A stretch of DNA of 64,000 nucleotides from Brevundimonas sp. NIBR11 (GTDB lineage: Bacteria; Pseudomonadota; Alphaproteobacteria; Caulobacterales; Caulobacteraceae), in the NCBI RefSeq assembly GCF_027912535.1, contig NZ_CP115465.1, positions 2,274,001-2,338,000 on the forward strand, in the 5' to 3' direction. The first letter of the stretch is position 1, and each line of letters begins with the position of its first letter. Positions 35,770 through 42,485 of this stretch are shown here, one piece after another. The translations under genes and the position numbers were made by a program. The notes under the pieces were generated by a model, which searched no databases, had not been told where the DNA came from, and saw only the letters and a list, made by a program, of their open reading frames with translations.

Positions 35770-35801
35770 TTGACCGTTCCACTGTTACATCATAGTGGAA
35801 C
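35770..35801 (+). promoter_or_regulatory. yerC/his operon promoter with perfect inverted repeat
   Basis: GTTCCACT at 35776-35783 and AGTGGAAC at 35794-35801 form a perfect 8-bp inverted repeat with a 10-base spacer, ending six bases before the yerC start. TTGACC at 35770-35775 is a good -35 element directly abutting the left half. Such a placement fits autorepression by the TrpR-like YerC. There is no T-run, so it is not a terminator. Confidence 0.6.
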
Positions 35802-35807
35802 ACAGAC

Positions 35808-36128
35808 ATGTCCGCCCCACTTTCCAAGAAGGCCATCGATAAGGCCGCCGACGACCGGCTGGCGCTTTATGACGCCCTGCTGTCGCTGAAGACGCCGGCG
35901 GAGCTGGACGCCTTCCTGTCGGACCTCTGCACCCCCGCCGAACTGCGCGCCTTTTCCGAGCGGTGGGCGGTGGCCCGGCTGCTGGACGAGGGACTGAAGA
36001 CCTATCGGGAGATCGGCGCGGAGGCGGGCGCCAGCCCCACCACCGTCGTCCGCGTCGCGCGTTTCCTGCGCGAGATGGATCATCAGGGCTATCGCCTCGT
36101 TCTCGATCGCCTGACCAAGAAAGCCTGA
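35808..36128 (+). CDS. YerC/YecD-family TrpR-like regulator
   Basis: A 106-residue helical protein of the Trp-repressor superfamily: DALLSLKTPAELDAFLSDLC, ERWAVARLLDEGLKTYREIG, then the HTH EAGASPTTVVRVARFL. YerC proteins frequently head histidine operons in alphaproteobacteria. It starts 6 bases after a perfect inverted repeat and ends six bases before hisG, so it is cotranscribed with the his genes and is the likely regulator. The ligand is unknown. Confidence 0.85.
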   Translation: MSAPLSKKAIDKAADDRLALYDALLSLKTPAELDAFLSDLCTPAELRAFSERWAVARLLDEGLKTYREIGAEAGASPTTVVRVARFLREMDHQGYRLVLDRLTKKA

Positions 36129-36134
36129 CTTGCC

Positions 36135-37016
36135 ATGAGTACCGTCCAGGGGCGACTTCGCATCGCCGTGCAGAAATCCGGCCGCCTGGCCGACCGCAGT
36201 CTCGACCTCGTGCGGGACGCCGGCCTGCGCGTCGTGAAGGGGGCGAACGACCTGCTCTACAAGGTCGAGAACTATCCGATCGACCTGCTGCGCGTGCGTG
36301 ACGACGACATCCCCACCTTTGTGGCGGACGGGGTCTGCGACCTCGGCATCGTCGGGGAGAATGTGCTGGAAGAGGGCAAGAATGGCGGGGCCAATGCCTC
36401 GGTCGTGATGCCGTTGGGGTTCGGGAAATGCACCCTGAAGCTCGCCTGTCCGCCGACGCTGGACTACGCAGGGCCGGCATCGCTGGAGGGGCTGCGGATC
36501 GCGACGTCCTATCCGAGGATCCTCAAACGCTATCTGGATGAGCAGGGCGTCCAGGCCGACACCGTCGTCATGCGCGGCGCGGTCGAGGTCGCGCCCCGGC
36601 TGAAGCTGGCGGCGGCGATCTGCGATCTGGTGTCGACCGGCGCGACGCTGGAAGCCAACGGTCTTGTCGCCAAGGAGACGGTGTTCGAGAGTCAGGCCGT
36701 GCTGATCCAGTCGCCTGTCGCGCCTGAGCCGGGCCTGCAGCACCTGCTAGATTCGGTCATCGAGCGGATGGCGGGCGTGGTGTCCTCCCAAGGGGCGAAA
36801 TACGTGATGCTGAACGCACCGCGCTCGGCGCTGGACCAGATCACGGCGATCCTGCCCGGAGCGGGCGCGCCGACGGTCATGCCTCTGATGGGACGCGACG
36901 ATGCGGTCGCGGTCCACGCCGTCTGCCAAGAGGCCGTTTTCTGGGAGACCCTCGAGAAGCTGAAGGCGGCAGGCGCTTCGGCCATCCTCGTCCTCCCCAT
37001 CGAGAAGATGATGTGA
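36135..37016 (+). CDS. hisG: ATP phosphoribosyltransferase
   Basis: A 293-residue enzyme for the first step of histidine synthesis, joining ATP and PRPP. LRIAVQKSGRLADRS at the start, GVCDLGIVGENVLEE, and the PRPP-binding ICDLVSTGATLEANGL are the family signatures. The length and a regulatory-type C-terminal domain (from about 220) fit the long, self-regulated form that does not need HisZ. It is translationally coupled to hisD: the stop and next start share TGATG. Confidence 0.95.
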   Translation: MSTVQGRLRIAVQKSGRLADRSLDLVRDAGLRVVKGANDLLYKVENYPIDLLRVRDDDIPTFVADGVCDLGIVGENVLEEGKNGGANASVVMPLGFGKCTLKLACPPTLDYAGPASLEGLRIATSYPRILKRYLDEQGVQADTVVMRGAVEVAPRLKLAAAICDLVSTGATLEANGLVAKETVFESQAVLIQSPVAPEPGLQHLLDSVIERMAGVVSSQGAKYVMLNAPRSALDQITAILPGAGAPTVMPLMGRDDAVAVHAVCQEAVFWETLEKLKAAGASAILVLPIEKMM

Positions 37017-38338
37017 TGCCCCCGTCTGTCTTCAAACGCATAGATTGGGCGACATTGGATGCGGCGGGGCGGCGCGAGGCCCTGGCCCGGCCGAAGCAGC
37101 GATCGGAAGCGAACGTCGTGGACGCCGTGCGCGCCATCTTCGATGACGTGGAAGCGCGCGGCGGCGCGGCCGTGACGGAGTGGGCGATCAAGCTGGACGG
37201 CTTCGCGCCGCGCCGGATCGCTATCACTGAGGCGGTCGTGGCCGAGGCGCGCGACGCCCTGCCCCCCGCCGATACGCGGGCGCTGCGGGTCGCGACGGAG
37301 AACGTCCGGGTCTTCCATCAGGCGACGGTTCCGGAGGACTCGAAATCGGTCGAGACGACGCCGGGCGTGACGTCGAAGATCGTCTGGCGGCCCATCGGGG
37401 CGGCGGGTCTCTATGTGCCCGGCGGGACGGCGCCGCTCTTCTCTTCACTCCTTATGCTGGCTATTCCGGCGGGTGTCGCAGGGGTCGAGACGAGGGTCGC
37501 GGTGACGCCGCCGTCGAAGGACGGATCGGCTCATCCGGCCATGATCCTGGCGGCGGCCGAGGCGGGACTGGACGCGCTCTGGCTGATCGGCGGGGCGCAG
37601 GCGATCGCGGCGATGACGTTCGGCGTAACGCTGGAGGACGGCGAGATCCCCGCCTGTGACAAGCTGTTCGGACCGGGCAACGCCTATGTGGCCGAGGCCA
37701 AGCGATATGCGTCCTCCCTGCCCGGCGGGCCGAGCGCGGACATGCCGGCGGGGCCGTCGGAACTGCTGGTCATCGCCGACCGGAGCGCCGACGCGGACCT
37801 GGTGGCCGCCGACCTGTTGAGCCAAGCCGAGCACGACGCGGACGCCCAGGTGGTGCTGGTCGCTGACCGGGTCGCGACCATCGATGCGGTGTTGGAAGAG
37901 GTCGAGGAGCAGGTCTCCACCTTGCCTCGCCAAGCCATCGCGCGAACGTCGCTCGCCGAGGCGCGGGCGGTGCTGGTGTCCGATCTGGACGAGGCGGTCG
38001 CGGTGTCGAACCTCTATGGACCCGAGCACCTCGCGCTGCATGTCGAGAACGCGGAAGCGCTGGTGCCAAAAATCCGGGCGGCGGGGGCGGTGTTCGTCGG
38101 GCGATGGGCGGCCGAGACTCTCGGCGACTATGCAGCGGGTCCGAGCCACGTCCTGCCCACCGACGGCGGGGCGCGGACCTTGGGCGGGATCACCACCGCC
38201 AGCTTCATGACTTCAATGTCGGTGCAGACGGTGACCGAGGCCGGCGCCGAACGGTTGGGGCCTATCGCGGCGCGGCTGGCGCGACTGGAAGGGTTGGAGG
38301 CCCACGCGCGGGCAGCCGATCTAAGGAGCGTGCCGTGA
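37016..38338 (+). CDS. hisD: Histidinol dehydrogenase
   Basis: A 440-residue zinc enzyme that carries out the last two oxidations to histidine. GLYVPGGTAPLFSSLLMLAIPA binds NAD; GPGNAYVAEAKR, DLLSQAEHDADAQVVLV and YGPEHLALHVEN carry zinc and catalytic residues; AGPSHVLPT closes the site. The start is ATG 37016 overlapping the hisG stop; GTG 37013 is an alternative. The next gene starts GTGA inside the stop. Confidence 0.97.
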   Translation: MPPSVFKRIDWATLDAAGRREALARPKQRSEANVVDAVRAIFDDVEARGGAAVTEWAIKLDGFAPRRIAITEAVVAEARDALPPADTRALRVATENVRVFHQATVPEDSKSVETTPGVTSKIVWRPIGAAGLYVPGGTAPLFSSLLMLAIPAGVAGVETRVAVTPPSKDGSAHPAMILAAAEAGLDALWLIGGAQAIAAMTFGVTLEDGEIPACDKLFGPGNAYVAEAKRYASSLPGGPSADMPAGPSELLVIADRSADADLVAADLLSQAEHDADAQVVLVADRVATIDAVLEEVEEQVSTLPRQAIARTSLAEARAVLVSDLDEAVAVSNLYGPEHLALHVENAEALVPKIRAAGAVFVGRWAAETLGDYAAGPSHVLPTDGGARTLGGITTASFMTSMSVQTVTEAGAERLGPIAARLARLEGLEAHARAADLRSVP

Positions 38339-39762
38339 CCCTGCCCGCCCCCTATTCACCTCTCGTCACCGGCGGCGAGGGCCTGGAGAAATATCCCGGC
38401 GAGCCGACGGCGCTGCAGGCGCGGATGGCGCAGGTCTATGGCGTCGCCGCCGATCAAGTGCTGGCGGTACGCGGCCTGACGCACGGGCTGGAACTGGTCT
38501 GGCGCATGGCGGCGAGGGATGGACGATCGGTCGAGGCGCCCGAAGCCGAGCCCTATGCCGAGCTGGGTCGCATCTATCGCCCCGGCGACGGCGAACGGGC
38601 GGCGGTGGTGATCCGCGCGCTGGGGTCTGCCGAGGCCGTGGTCGAGATGGCGGAACGCGTCGCGCCTGCTCTCCTGATTGTGGACGAAGGGCTGGTCGAG
38701 TTCTCAGACGCGCCGTCGGCGGCGACACTCGTTTCGCAGCACGCCAATCTGGTGGTTCTGCGGAGCCTGTCGATGGCCCATGGTTTGGCCGGCGCACGAG
38801 TCGGCGCGGCGCTGGCTCGGGCGGAGACGCTGGCGCTGCTCGCCGAGGTGGTCGAGCCCTATGCCTTGCCCGCCCCCCTGGTGCGGCTGGCGATGCAGGC
38901 GCTGGACCCGTCCCGGATGATCGAGACGGCGGAGCGGATTGCAGCCGTCCGACGCGAGCGCGAGCGGCTGGTGCGAGAAATCGGCCGGACCATGGTGGTC
39001 GAGAAAGGCGCGGGGCCGATCCTGATGGCGCGGCCTTCGGACTTGGAGGCGACACTGGGCGAACTGGCGAAGTACGGTGTGGCGGCAGACCGGTCGGGCG
39101 ACCGGCTGAGGCTGCCGGTGTCGATCAAGGCCGAGGTCAACGACCGGCTGTTGACGGCGCTCGGCCTGACGCCGGCCAAGGCGCGGTCGCATCGGGTCGG
39201 GCAGGCCGTGCGCGACACCAAGGAGACGCGCATCGTCTGCGCCGTCGATCTGGACGCGACGGGACCGATCAGGATCGAGACCGGCGTCGGCTTCTTCGAC
39301 CACATGCTGGAGCAGGTGGCCGCGCACGGAGGGTTCTCCCTGCGGCTGTCGTGCGAGGGCGACCTGCACACCGACCCTCACCACACCATCGAGGACTCGG
39401 CCATCGCACTGGGTCTGGCGCTGAAACAGGCGCTGGGCGAGCGACGCGGGATCGCGCGCTACGGCTTCGTCCTGGCCATGGACGAGGCGCAGGCGAACGT
39501 GGCCATCGACCTGTCGGGACGCCCCTATCCGCTGTTCGAGGGGACGTTCGCGACGCCTTTCATCGGCGAGTACCGCACTGACCTGACGGCGCATGTCTTC
39601 CGCTCGCTGGCCGAGGCGATGGGGGCGGCGGTGCACATCTCCGTCACCGGCGACGACGACCACCACAAGACCGAGGCCGTCTACAAGGGCTTCGGCCGAG
39701 CGCTGCGACAGGCGATCCGGATCGAGGGCGATGTGGTGCCCTCGACCAAGGGTGTGCTGTGA
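38335..39762 (+). CDS. hisB: Fused degenerate HisC domain + imidazoleglycerol-phosphate dehydratase
   Basis: A 475-residue fusion. Residues 1-283 align with HisC aminotransferase (AVRGLTHGLELV, LLIVDEGLVEFSD, LVVLRSLSMAHGLAGARVG, VVEPYALPAPLVRLAMQAL), but the PLP lysine in LSKxxGLAG is Met147. The DEAY tyrosine is Leu, and the CNPNNPTG segment is gone with about 25-35 residues. Residues 284-475 are a complete HisB dehydratase: FFDHMLEQVAAHGGF, HTDPHHTIEDSA, DDDHHKTEAVYKGFGRAL with its metal histidines. So HisB activity is expected, HisC activity not. Starts GTGA in hisD. Confidence 0.9.
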   Translation: MTLPAPYSPLVTGGEGLEKYPGEPTALQARMAQVYGVAADQVLAVRGLTHGLELVWRMAARDGRSVEAPEAEPYAELGRIYRPGDGERAAVVIRALGSAEAVVEMAERVAPALLIVDEGLVEFSDAPSAATLVSQHANLVVLRSLSMAHGLAGARVGAALARAETLALLAEVVEPYALPAPLVRLAMQALDPSRMIETAERIAAVRRERERLVREIGRTMVVEKGAGPILMARPSDLEATLGELAKYGVAADRSGDRLRLPVSIKAEVNDRLLTALGLTPAKARSHRVGQAVRDTKETRIVCAVDLDATGPIRIETGVGFFDHMLEQVAAHGGFSLRLSCEGDLHTDPHHTIEDSAIALGLALKQALGERRGIARYGFVLAMDEAQANVAIDLSGRPYPLFEGTFATPFIGEYRTDLTAHVFRSLAEAMGAAVHISVTGDDDHHKTEAVYKGFGRALRQAIRIEGDVVPSTKGVL

Positions 39763-40358
39763 CCGTCGTCATCGTCCACCTCGGCGCGGGGAATACCGCC
39801 TCGGTCCAGTTCGCGCTGGAGCGGTTGGGCGCCGACGTCGTCGTGACCTCGGAGGCGAGCGTGATCGCCGACGCGGAGCGAGTGGTGCTGCCGGGGGTGG
39901 GAGCCGCCGGCTATGCGATGGAGCAGATGGCGGCGCTGGGTCTGGTGAAGGTCATCAAAGCGTTCGAGCGTCCCCTGATCGGGCTGTGCCTCGGCCAACA
40001 GTTGCTGTTCGCCGAGAGCGAGGAGAACGGGGGCGCGACGATGCTGGGGTTCATTCCTGGCCGGGTGACCCGGATGCCTGTTCGTGACGATCTGCCGGTG
40101 CCGCACATGGGTTGGTCGCAGCTTCGGAGCCTGGCCGACGATCCGATCCTGGACGGAGTCAAAGAGGGCGACTACGCCTACTTCGTCCACTCATTTGTCT
40201 GCCCGGACACAGCGTCGACCATCGCCTGCGCGGACTATGGGGCCGAGGTGCCGGCCATGGTCCGGACGGGCAATCGCTGGGGCTGTCAATTCCACCCGGA
40301 GCGATCGGCGAAGGCGGGCGCGCGGATATTGCAGAACTTCCTGGAGTTGCCGGCATGA
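39759..40358 (+). CDS. hisH: Imidazole glycerol phosphate synthase, glutaminase subunit
   Basis: A 199-residue class I glutamine amidotransferase that supplies ammonia to HisF. The nucleophile is in IGLCLGQQLLF, and the His-Glu pair is in FHPERSAKAG; the oxyanion segment LPGVGAAGYAM is present. The start GTG overlaps the previous stop by four bases, and the end overlaps hisA by four bases. Confidence 0.96.
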   Translation: MTVVIVHLGAGNTASVQFALERLGADVVVTSEASVIADAERVVLPGVGAAGYAMEQMAALGLVKVIKAFERPLIGLCLGQQLLFAESEENGGATMLGFIPGRVTRMPVRDDLPVPHMGWSQLRSLADDPILDGVKEGDYAYFVHSFVCPDTASTIACADYGAEVPAMVRTGNRWGCQFHPERSAKAGARILQNFLELPA

Positions 40359-41098
40359 TCGTCTATCCCGCCATCGACCTGCGGAACGGCGTCTGCGTGC
40401 GGCTGATGCACGGGCGGTTCAATCAGGTGACCGAATACGATCAGGTCCCGGCGGCGCGGCTGGCGGCCTTCGCGGCGGAGGGTGCGACCTGGGTCCATGT
40501 CGTCGATCTGGACGGCGCGGAGGCCGGGCGCGCGATGCAGCACCAACTGATCGGCGAGCTGGCCGGCAGCATCGATGTAAAGATCCAGTCCGGCGGCGGC
40601 GTGCGCGACGTGGATGACGTCGAGGCCCTGTTGAACGCGGGTGTGTCGCGGGTGGTGGTCGGGTCGCTTGCGGTCAGCAATCCGGTCGTGGTCGCGACCT
40701 GGCTGGAGCGTTTCAGCCCGGATCGCCTCACCCTGGCGTTCGACGTGAAGGTCGGCGAGGACGGCGTGCCCGTGCCGGCGCTGAAGGGCTGGACCGAGGC
40801 GGCGGGCGTGGATCTGTGGGCCGCGTTGGATCGTTATCCGGCGGGCACGCTGAAGCATGTGCTGATCACCGATGTGGGTCGGGACGGAGCGTTGACGGGG
40901 CCGAACCTGGAACTGCTGGCCGAGGTGCTCCAGCGACGTCCGGAGCTGAAGGTGCAGGCGTCTGGAGGAGTCTCGTCGATCGAGGACATCCTGGCCGCCA
41001 AGGCCATCGGCTGTGACGGCGCCATCGTCGGACGAGCCATCTATGAGGGCCGGTTCACGGCTCGACAGGCCATAGAGGCGGTAGAGGCGGTTCAGTGA
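40355..41098 (+). CDS. hisA: ProFAR isomerase (HisA)
   Basis: A 247-residue TIM-barrel isomerase opening the ribose ring of ProFAR. The catalytic Asp is in YPAIDLRNG, the phosphate sites in SGGGVRD and ASGGVSS, and the second catalytic Asp in ITDVGRDGALTGPN. ATGA overlap with hisH, four-base overlap with hisF; all his genes here are coupled this way. Confidence 0.97.
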   Translation: MIVYPAIDLRNGVCVRLMHGRFNQVTEYDQVPAARLAAFAAEGATWVHVVDLDGAEAGRAMQHQLIGELAGSIDVKIQSGGGVRDVDDVEALLNAGVSRVVVGSLAVSNPVVVATWLERFSPDRLTLAFDVKVGEDGVPVPALKGWTEAAGVDLWAALDRYPAGTLKHVLITDVGRDGALTGPNLELLAEVLQRRPELKVQASGGVSSIEDILAAKAIGCDGAIVGRAIYEGRFTARQAIEAVEAVQ

Positions 41099-41862
41099 CC
41101 GCGCGGCGCATCATTCCGTGCCTCGACGTCAAGGATGGCCGGGTCGTGAAGGGCGTGCAGTTCGAGGGGCATGTCGACATGGGCGACGCCTCGGAGCTCG
41201 CTGCCCGCTACCGCGATCAGGGGGCAGACGAGCTGGTCTTCTACGACATCACGGCTAGCCCCGAGGGGCGGACGCTGGACTATGGCTGGGTGCGGGATAT
41301 CGCGCGGCTGCTGGACATACCCTTCTGCGTGGCGGGCGGGATCCGGACGGTGAACCAGGCGGCGACCTGTCTCGACAACGGGGCGGACAAGGTCTCGATC
41401 AACTCCCCGGCCCTGGAGCGGCCCGAGTTGATCACCGAGATGGCCGAGCGGCTGGGGTCCCAGTGCGTGGTGGTCGGGGTCGATAGCCGGCGCGAGGACG
41501 GCGACTACGTCGTGCATAAATACACGGGCGATCCGGATGCGCGCCGTCTGGCCGGGCGGCGGACGATGGACTGGATCGTGGAGGCGCAGGAGCGCGGTGC
41601 CGGGGAGATCGTGCTGAACTGCATCGATCAGGACGGGGTCCGGAAGGGCTATGACACCGCTCAGCTGGCTGATGCACGGTCGCGGCTGACCATTCCGCTC
41701 GTGGCCTCGGGCGGGGCTGGGTCGGAGTCGCATTTTCTGGACGTTTTTGATCGGGCCAATGTGTCTGGAGCACTGGCGGCCAGCGTCTTCCACTCCGGCC
41801 AGATCGCAGTGCCGGACCTGAAGGCCTTCCTGGCCGGCGCGGGCGTGGAGGTGAGACAATGA
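41095..41862 (+). CDS. hisF: Imidazole glycerol phosphate synthase, cyclase subunit
   Basis: A 255-residue TIM-barrel partner of HisH. IIPCLDVKDGRVVKGV carries the catalytic Asp, and VNCID-like LNCIDQDGVRKGYD carries the second; GGIRTV and ASGGAGS bind phosphates. Starts GTGA in hisA and overlaps the hisIE start as ATGA. Confidence 0.97.
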   Translation: MTARRIIPCLDVKDGRVVKGVQFEGHVDMGDASELAARYRDQGADELVFYDITASPEGRTLDYGWVRDIARLLDIPFCVAGGIRTVNQAATCLDNGADKVSINSPALERPELITEMAERLGSQCVVVGVDSRREDGDYVVHKYTGDPDARRLAGRRTMDWIVEAQERGAGEIVLNCIDQDGVRKGYDTAQLADARSRLTIPLVASGGAGSESHFLDVFDRANVSGALAASVFHSGQIAVPDLKAFLAGAGVEVRQ

Positions 41863-42485
41863 GCATCAATCCGGACACTCTCGATTTCGCCAAGGGCGGC
41901 GGCCTGATCCCCGCCGTGGTGCAGGATGCCGACACGCTTCAGGTGCTGACGCTGGCCTATGTGGACCGGGCGGCGCTTGAGGAAACGATCGAGTCCCGTG
42001 AAGCGACCTTCTTCTCCCGCTCGCGCGGGGGACGGTGGCGAAAGGGCGAGACCTCGGGCAACAGGCTCAAGGTGGTCGGGATCGCGGCCGACTGCGACGG
42101 GGATGCCTTGGTGCTGTCGGTGCGGCCGATGGGACCGGCCTGTCACCTTGGGACCACCAGCTGTTTCGGCGATGAGGACGCGCCGGGTCTGGGTCGAATT
42201 GCGCGGCTGGAGCGGACCATCGCCGAACGGGCTGCGGCCGATCCGGAGACGAGCTGGACCGCCAGACTGCTGGCTAAGGGCCCGAAACGGGTGGCGCAGA
42301 AGGTCGGCGAGGAAGGCGTGGAGACCGCTCTGGCGGGCGCCGCGGGGCCTGACGAAGAAGTCGCATCCGAGGCGGCGGACCTGATCTATCACTTGCTCGT
42401 TCTGTTACGGGCGCGTCACTTGTCGTTTCAGGACGTTCTGGACGTGTTGGCCACGCGCGAGCGACCGGCCAAACAACCACGATAA
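41859..42485 (+). CDS. hisI: Bifunctional phosphoribosyl-AMP cyclohydrolase / phosphoribosyl-ATP pyrophosphatase
   Basis: A 208-residue HisI-HisE fusion performing steps two and three of the pathway. HisI half (1-115): FFSRSRGG, WRKGETSGN, the zinc motif CDGDAL and GPACHLGTTSCF. HisE half (about 118-205): LERTIAERAAADPETSW, EEGVETALAG, SEAADLIYHLLVLL (MazG-type acidic helices). It is the last his gene; zwf starts 38 bases later with only a weak hairpin between. Confidence 0.95.
   Translation: MSINPDTLDFAKGGGLIPAVVQDADTLQVLTLAYVDRAALEETIESREATFFSRSRGGRWRKGETSGNRLKVVGIAADCDGDALVLSVRPMGPACHLGTTSCFGDEDAPGLGRIARLERTIAERAAADPETSWTARLLAKGPKRVAQKVGEEGVETALAGAAGPDEEVASEAADLIYHLLVLLRARHLSFQDVLDVLATRERPAKQPR

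Follow-up and report, generated by a model that had tools for sequence, protein, structure and literature searches.

The histidine operon in the window, a stretch of 64,000 nucleotides from Brevundimonas sp. NIBR11, raises the question of why a cell would keep a domain resembling the histidinol-phosphate aminotransferase HisC, its catalytic residues gone, in one polypeptide with an imidazoleglycerol-phosphate dehydratase (IGPD), the enzyme that precedes HisC in histidine synthesis. The gene concerned (38335-39762, + strand) is a single open reading frame of 475 amino acids, pseudo-HisC followed by IGPD, and the operon is arranged as hisR-hisG-hisD-(pseudoHisC-IGPD)-hisH-hisA-hisF-hisIE, with the following features.

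35808..36128, + strand: hisR-like regulator of the TrpR-related YerC/YecD family, upstream of hisG (TIGR02531, 64.5 bits; cut-off 42.2)
36135..37016, + strand: hisG, long form with HisG_C, identified by profile search
37013..38338, + strand: hisD (PF00815, 461 bits)
38335..38338, + strand: GTGA overlap of the fusion start (GTG, 38335-38337) and the hisD stop (TGA, 38336-38338)
38335..39186, + strand: pseudo-HisC domain, residues 1-284, HisC-like, without the N-terminal arm, the N157 block, Y187 and K214
38692..38694, + strand: CTG codon of Leu120, at the position of the DEAY tyrosine in active HisC
38773..38775, + strand: ATG codon of Met147, at the Schiff-base lysine position, where most relatives have Leu
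39187..39759, + strand: IGPD domain, residues 285-475, apparently intact
39759..40358, + strand: hisH (PF00117, 54.2 bits), the start of which overlaps the fusion stop by GTGA
40355..41098, + strand: open reading frame that we take to be hisA from its position
41095..41862, + strand: open reading frame, presumably hisF, named on the same grounds
41859..42485, + strand: bifunctional hisI(E) (PF01502 and PF01503)

The original prediction described a single-frame fusion coupled to hisD by a GTGA overlap, and the open reading frame, its frame, the GTG start and the overlap were all found as described, with AAGGAG at 38323-38328 ahead of the start codon. Elsewhere in the operon, a perfect 8-bp inverted repeat, GTTCCACT-N10-AGTGGAAC, occupies positions 35776-35801, 6 bases upstream of the hisR-like ATG, and from its sequence is a candidate operator of the his operon.

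We then compared the N-terminal half with known aminotransferases. In the fusion protein, Pfam models placed Aminotran_1_2 at residues 100-276 and IGPD at 316-457. The hisC model TIGR01141 matched at 3e-30 with 105.3 bits, below its curated cut-off of 276.55, and the top solved-structure match was E. coli HisC (1.5e-21). In a fold model with a mean pLDDT of 86.4, residues 13-276 (264 residues) aligned with residues 48-351 (304 residues) of E. coli HisC, and the domain is predicted to fold as a HisC lacking its arm. A chance likeness to HisC was ruled out by the profile match, the structure match and the predicted fold. The alignment to E. coli HisC confirmed that the Schiff-base lysine K214 is Met147, that the DEAY tyrosine Y187 is Leu120 and that the CSPNNPTG block including N157 is deleted; furthermore, R322 is replaced by Asp and the N-terminal arm is gone. 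The D184, S213, R222 and R335 sites are kept in the window protein. The shrinkage, put earlier at about 30 residues, amounts to about 75 relative to E. coli HisC (356 aa); since 264 model residues align to 304, the loss comprises about 35 residues from the N-terminal arm plus some 40 inside the domain, the N157 block included. The earlier reading of a retained pseudo-aminotransferase, in one frame with an entire IGPD in a cell that has a separate HisC, thus stood, except for the size of the shrinkage. As a HisC aminotransferase, the domain has the predicted fold, and neither the Schiff-base lysine nor a score over the curated cut-off. The enzyme fold, the loss of catalytic residues and the conservation over species identify it, by sequence and predicted fold, as a pseudoenzyme domain, presumably now without transaminase activity.

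The IGPD half, for its part, gave 188 bits with PF00475 (cut-off 27) over model positions 1-144 of 144. H323, H349, H350, E353, H420, H443, H444 and E447, which we take to be the metal-site residues, were invariant in 25 aligned fusions, in agreement with the claim that the HisB half keeps its metal histidines, and both observations place it with the IGPDs (HisB C-terminal type). It is not a bifunctional HisNB, as the N-terminal phosphatase domain is absent: the HisNB model NF003937 gave the best NCBIfam score for this half, restricted to the IGPD part of the model, and covered only residues 284-475 of the fusion, with 265.3 bits against a cut-off of 443. The fusion's IGPD is the single PF00475 match in the genome (one contig, 3.17 Mb). 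The same genome holds one HisC over cut-off (C1:2545679-2546728, 304.7 bits), the open reading frame of which carries its lysine, and a HisN match (C1:2634491-2635243, 296 bits; cut-off 275.15), so that the missing transaminase and the HisNB phosphatase both have candidates elsewhere. The original prediction had held that the cell needs another HisC and proposed a genome search for it, and this intact copy answers it.

To place the loss among relatives, Brevundimonas genomes were surveyed, and 118 of the 131 contained the fusion, complete or in part. Of these 118 loci, 114 were analysed, the window's own included, and the lysine site was read by pattern in 112; the residue was Leu in 104, Met in 4, Phe in 1, Ser in 1 and Lys in 2. 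Outside the 112 are L191, missed by the pattern and Leu by eye, and the frameshifted L236; the pieces in G038, G058, G088 and G137 are not in the set. The two Lys copies (G064 and G121) are full-length, live-looking fusions. A lysine kept by relatives and mutated in this strain alone had been named as grounds for abandoning the prediction; 110 of the 112 congeneric sites lack it, and a strain-specific mutation or sequencing error is ruled out by this shared loss. The frameshift of L236 (G112, a single-contig genome) lies within the dead HisC domain and is either natural or a sequencing error. No IGPD match was detected in the 13 fusion-less Brevundimonas genomes (G032, G066, G071, G076, G091, G101, G102, G113, G115, G119, G136, G143 and G144; three of the 13 are <90% complete), which are therefore probably histidine auxotrophs.

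Among 108 Brevundimonas fusions, a set that omits partial and frameshifted copies (<466 aa, L236), L191 and the two live copies, 80 of the 283 pseudodomain positions were at least 97% identical, with gaps of 0.74 residues on average (maximum 11). Selection was assessed as dN/dS by a simple Nei-Gojobori count. Sixteen disjoint close Brevundimonas pairs, pooled, gave 0.170 for the pseudo-HisC against 0.050 for the IGPD, with 16/16 pairs below 0.5, and 72 close pairs gave 0.077 for HisD, 0.139 for the pseudo-HisC and 0.039 for the IGPD. For the Caulobacteraceae genus g4, the medians over 44 overlapping pairs were 0.085 for the pseudo-HisC and 0.058 for the IGPD, and four closer pairs gave 0.034 and 0.043, respectively. 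Over all distances, the 108 sequences gave 0.335 for the pseudodomain against 0.172 for the IGPD; on the same 2359 pairs, HisD reached 0.327 and the pseudodomain 0.334, and we attribute these raised values, equal for HisD, to synonymous saturation. The dead domain is thus under purifying selection, in g4 with a constraint near that of the IGPD, which supports its retention for a reason. This constraint could, nevertheless, arise only because a misfolded domain harms the essential IGPD.

Relatives outside the genus proved to include fusions with the HisC half still live-looking. Among the best 80 of 581 loci taken from a contig scan, the lysine motif was present in fusions from Caulobacterales (L024-L026), a Neisseriaceae MAG (L027), a Burkholderiales MAG (L028) and 11 Bacteroidota/Balneolota loci, that is, in 11/11 read from the last group. 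Y55, N157, D184, E185, Y187, S213, K214, R222, R322 and R335 were all kept in 10/10 sampled live Caulobacterales rows. The dead forms varied in length: in g4, where the lysine is replaced in 24/24 loci read, by Phe in 13 and by Tyr in 11, the domain measures 307-316 aa to the RDTKET motif, against 292 in the window; L270 (genus g15) has at most ~224 aa, and L276 is close to full length. A scan of the order gave a match in 168 of 398 genomes, and 69 loci from these genomes were examined (40 + 29). Of the first 40, 39 had an IGPD frame (8 live, 15 dead, 8 relic and 8 HisD-IGPD); of the next 29, 28 did (3 live, 14 relic, 9 HisD-IGPD and 2 of script class 'other', L333 and L334, in which the end of HisD precedes the IGPD), and L358 had none. 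Live forms occur in families f4 and f5, dead forms in f3 and f5/g40, relics in f4, and HisD-IGPD in f3/g33, f4/g38 and one f4/g28 genome. Loci outside the dead class include the following.

Live-looking HisC-IGPD fusions: L024-L028; L030-L032, L035, L038, L040, L048, L049, L060, L070, L073; L271-L275, L277-L279; L330-L332
Relic loci: L296-L298, L302-L304, L308, L309, L336, L337, L339, L341-L343, L346, L347, L349, L350, L352, L353, L355, L356
HisD-IGPD in one open frame, no HisC between: L029; L292-L295, L299-L301, L310; L335, L338, L340, L344, L345, L348, L351, L354, L357

The relic N-terminal domains of family f4 span 183-218 aa from the likely start to the IGPD (22 loci) and show, by eye, mere traces of HisC sequence. 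Since the pseudodomain is a relic or absent in these other lineages, it is not indispensable everywhere. None of the loci read showed an IGPD of this lineage standing free: wherever a contig end did not truncate it, the IGPD was preceded by a live HisC, a dead HisC, a relic or HisD as its N-terminal partner. Two of the live-looking fusions, from the Balneolaceae MAGs L030 and L031, have a long repeat-like linker joining the halves. A weaker IGPD match in G482 (f5), with 44% identity in a 252-aa frame, may be a free IGPD from another lineage.

We also asked how the state of the HisC half relates to a second HisC in the genome. In a comparison of 40 genomes, a separate HisC was found in 30/30 whose HisC half was dead or lost (29 over cut-off; G490 at 275.6 against 276.55), and in 4/10 with a live fusion. 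When the window genome and L025-L028 were added, the counts were 31/31 for dead or lost halves against 5/14 for live proteobacterial fusions (Fisher p 2e-6 with kinship ignored and 11 Bacteroidota/Balneolota genomes left out); a kinship-controlled independent-pairs test had 1-4 usable pairs, too few for significance. The live fusions of Bacteroidota/Balneolota were accompanied by a second HisC over cut-off in 3/11 genomes, so that 9/14 proteobacterial and 8/11 Bacteroidota/Balneolota live-fusion genomes had no other HisC over cut-off. As a second HisC also stands beside live fusions (5/14 and 3/11), redundancy does not always lead to the death of the HisC half. Within Brevundimonas, 5 of the 118 genomes with the fusion or a piece had no separate HisC over cut-off; among them, G079, G090 and G149 gave partial matches, while nothing strong was matched in G095, which is 95% complete. 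In the fifth, G029 (Brevundimonas albigilva), the separate hisC (C1:2041854-2042902) is split across two frames, and this strain may have no working HisC or carry a sequence error. The separate HisC probably has another job, since 11 of the 13 Brevundimonas genomes without any IGPD match retain it over cut-off, and an aromatic transaminase would be a fitting one.

The history of the fusion was examined in trees built by a quick method. The IGPD tree, with 93 rows, also contained IGPDs from four other Caulobacteraceae genomes that are free proteins beginning directly at the IGPD, and these stand separate (100, starred). The dead label changed 7 times, of which starred branches force 2, and the HisD-IGPD label, carried by nine rows, changed twice, both changes forced by starred branches (3 and 2 in the second tree). 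The N-truncated dead group comprises Brevundimonas, g4, g15, f3 with its HisD-IGPD rows, and L290 and L291 (f5/g40), and its members begin at the LDANENPFPPL region; its constraint to one clade was not rejected (p-AU 0.533). In the unconstrained trees, Brevundimonas has the live copies of G064 and G121 as neighbours, with unstarred support of 90 and 94. The dead L276 adjoins the live L272 (support 93 and 90), which looks like a separate, younger loss. A HisR-like gene was located upstream in 6/7 gamma loci searched and in 17/32 loci overall; this gene and the best match of the IGPD to HisNB lead us to infer an origin in a gamma-type operon, in which HisN was deleted and HisC joined to the IGPD. 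A bifunctional HisC-IGPD enzyme seems to be the ancestor of the fusion; forms with the catalytic residues still occur in other Caulobacterales and in Bacteroidota, and the ancestral HisC half presumably had transaminase activity.

On this evidence, the fusion gene is probably a degenerate bifunctional HisC-IGPD, the dead half of which acts as a non-catalytic structural N-terminal module of the IGPD. The starting point would have been a HisC-IGPD bifunctional enzyme within the his operon, its IGPD grouping with gamma-type HisNB and apart from the free-standing IGPDs of other Caulobacteraceae. With a full-length HisC also encoded separately in this lineage, the HisC half would have been redundant and would have shed the arm at its N-terminus together with the asparagine, the tyrosine and the PLP lysine. 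The remnant, with a HisC-like predicted fold without the arm, would then act as the N-terminal module, most likely as a partner in IGPD folding, solubility or assembly, and its translation would be coupled to that of hisD; scaffolding or regulation, as in the original prediction, is conceivable. Against such a structural module, the relics (22 loci) and the HisD-IGPD frames (two forced origins) show that the pseudodomain is dispensable. It is conceivable, if rather doubtful, that the IGPD of this lineage has come to depend on an N-terminal partner domain, and that the HisC half, dead where another HisC existed, became an obligatory non-catalytic assembly module that could shrink or be swapped for HisD and never be removed to give a free IGPD.

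The main rival to the structural module is slow decay with selection solely against misfolding, in which a functionless domain is kept since clean in-frame excision is rare and a misfolded fusion harms the essential IGPD. The graded series from L276 through g4 (307-316 aa), the window (292), L270 (at most ~224) and the relics (183-218) to HisD-IGPD is what such decay would leave; however, the g4 dN/dS is near the IGPD's own (0.085 vs 0.058), the length is almost constant over the 108 Brevundimonas sequences, the relic lengths are narrow too, and no freed IGPD of this lineage occurs in the loci read, so that we regard decay alone as unlikely. A docking or sensor domain, in which the altered site recognises the separate HisC or a ligand (a pathway intermediate, PLP or histidine) and so adjusts the IGPD, as the regulatory protein HisZ does HisG, would account for the conservation of the D184, E185, S213 and R222 sites in the 108 Brevundimonas sequences and of R335 in 104 of them, and for the derived His at the E86 site (H50), at least 97% conserved in the same set and present in 17/22 N-truncated dead rows. 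Nevertheless, N157, Y187, K214 and the N-terminal arm are lost, R222 is Pro in 13/14 f3/g40 rows, the relics retain hardly any of that site, and the separate HisC is, in an alignment judged by eye, too different in type for pairing, which together make this role improbable. Still further from likely, and close to negligible, is an aminotransferase that remains active through migrated catalytic residues: in its favour are the predicted fold, which resembles HisC, and the persistence of part of the PLP pocket, but the lysine is absent at its site in 110/112 congeners, the counterparts of N157 and Y187 are missing as well, and a separate intact HisC is present.

Returning to the structural module, the fusion can be set beside known systems. 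It shares with HisC (TIGR01141; E. coli 1gex) the predicted fold of its N-terminal half and the D184, S213, R222 and R335 sites, whereas it lacks the arm, K214, Y187 and N157, scores 105 bits against 276.55 and is joined to an IGPD. Its IGPD half groups with HisNB of gammaproteobacteria (NF003937), and its operon runs hisGD-C-B-HAF-IE, the E. coli order, but its N-terminal partner is a pseudo-HisC where that of HisNB is a phosphatase, and the score is 265 bits against 443. The live-looking HisC-IGPD fusions, its direct relatives, have the same domain order and joint; unlike the window fusion, they carry the lysine motif and, wherever the start was read, the N-terminal arm. HisZ is a dead enzyme paralogue, with a fold and pathway step different from those of the pseudo-HisC. 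As the partner of short HisG, it belongs to the same pathway as the window fusion but is a separate polypeptide, and the accessible parts of the literature give it a regulatory function, the enhancement of catalysis by HisG.

Titles and the beginnings of abstracts, a coverage that mostly excludes the subscription literature, yielded no account of a HisC-IGPD fusion. In the accessible text of PMC3485032 and PMC6143707, 'hisCB' is part of an operon name. The available part of PMC1963479 lists five his fusions, with the word hisC absent, and that of PMC10138114 names seven fused his genes, hisC not among them; HisC-IGPD would add a his gene fusion beyond the five. As far as its available text goes, PMC8305728 reports hisNB in all Bacteroidetes considered and a Balneolota HisB with an unexplained short N-terminal domain, which might be a HisC relic. 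HisR is placed in 11 genomes of Rhodobacterales and Caulobacterales by the accessible part of PMC9413887.

For annotation, HisC likeness in this gene need not imply transaminase activity. The family provides a natural graded series from a live-looking bifunctional enzyme through a dead domain to a relic or HisD-IGPD. Because conservation of the domain has far outlasted its catalytic residues, this is a good case for studying why cells keep dead enzymes, and the graded series makes the possible reasons, namely a required structure, regulation or inertia, directly testable.
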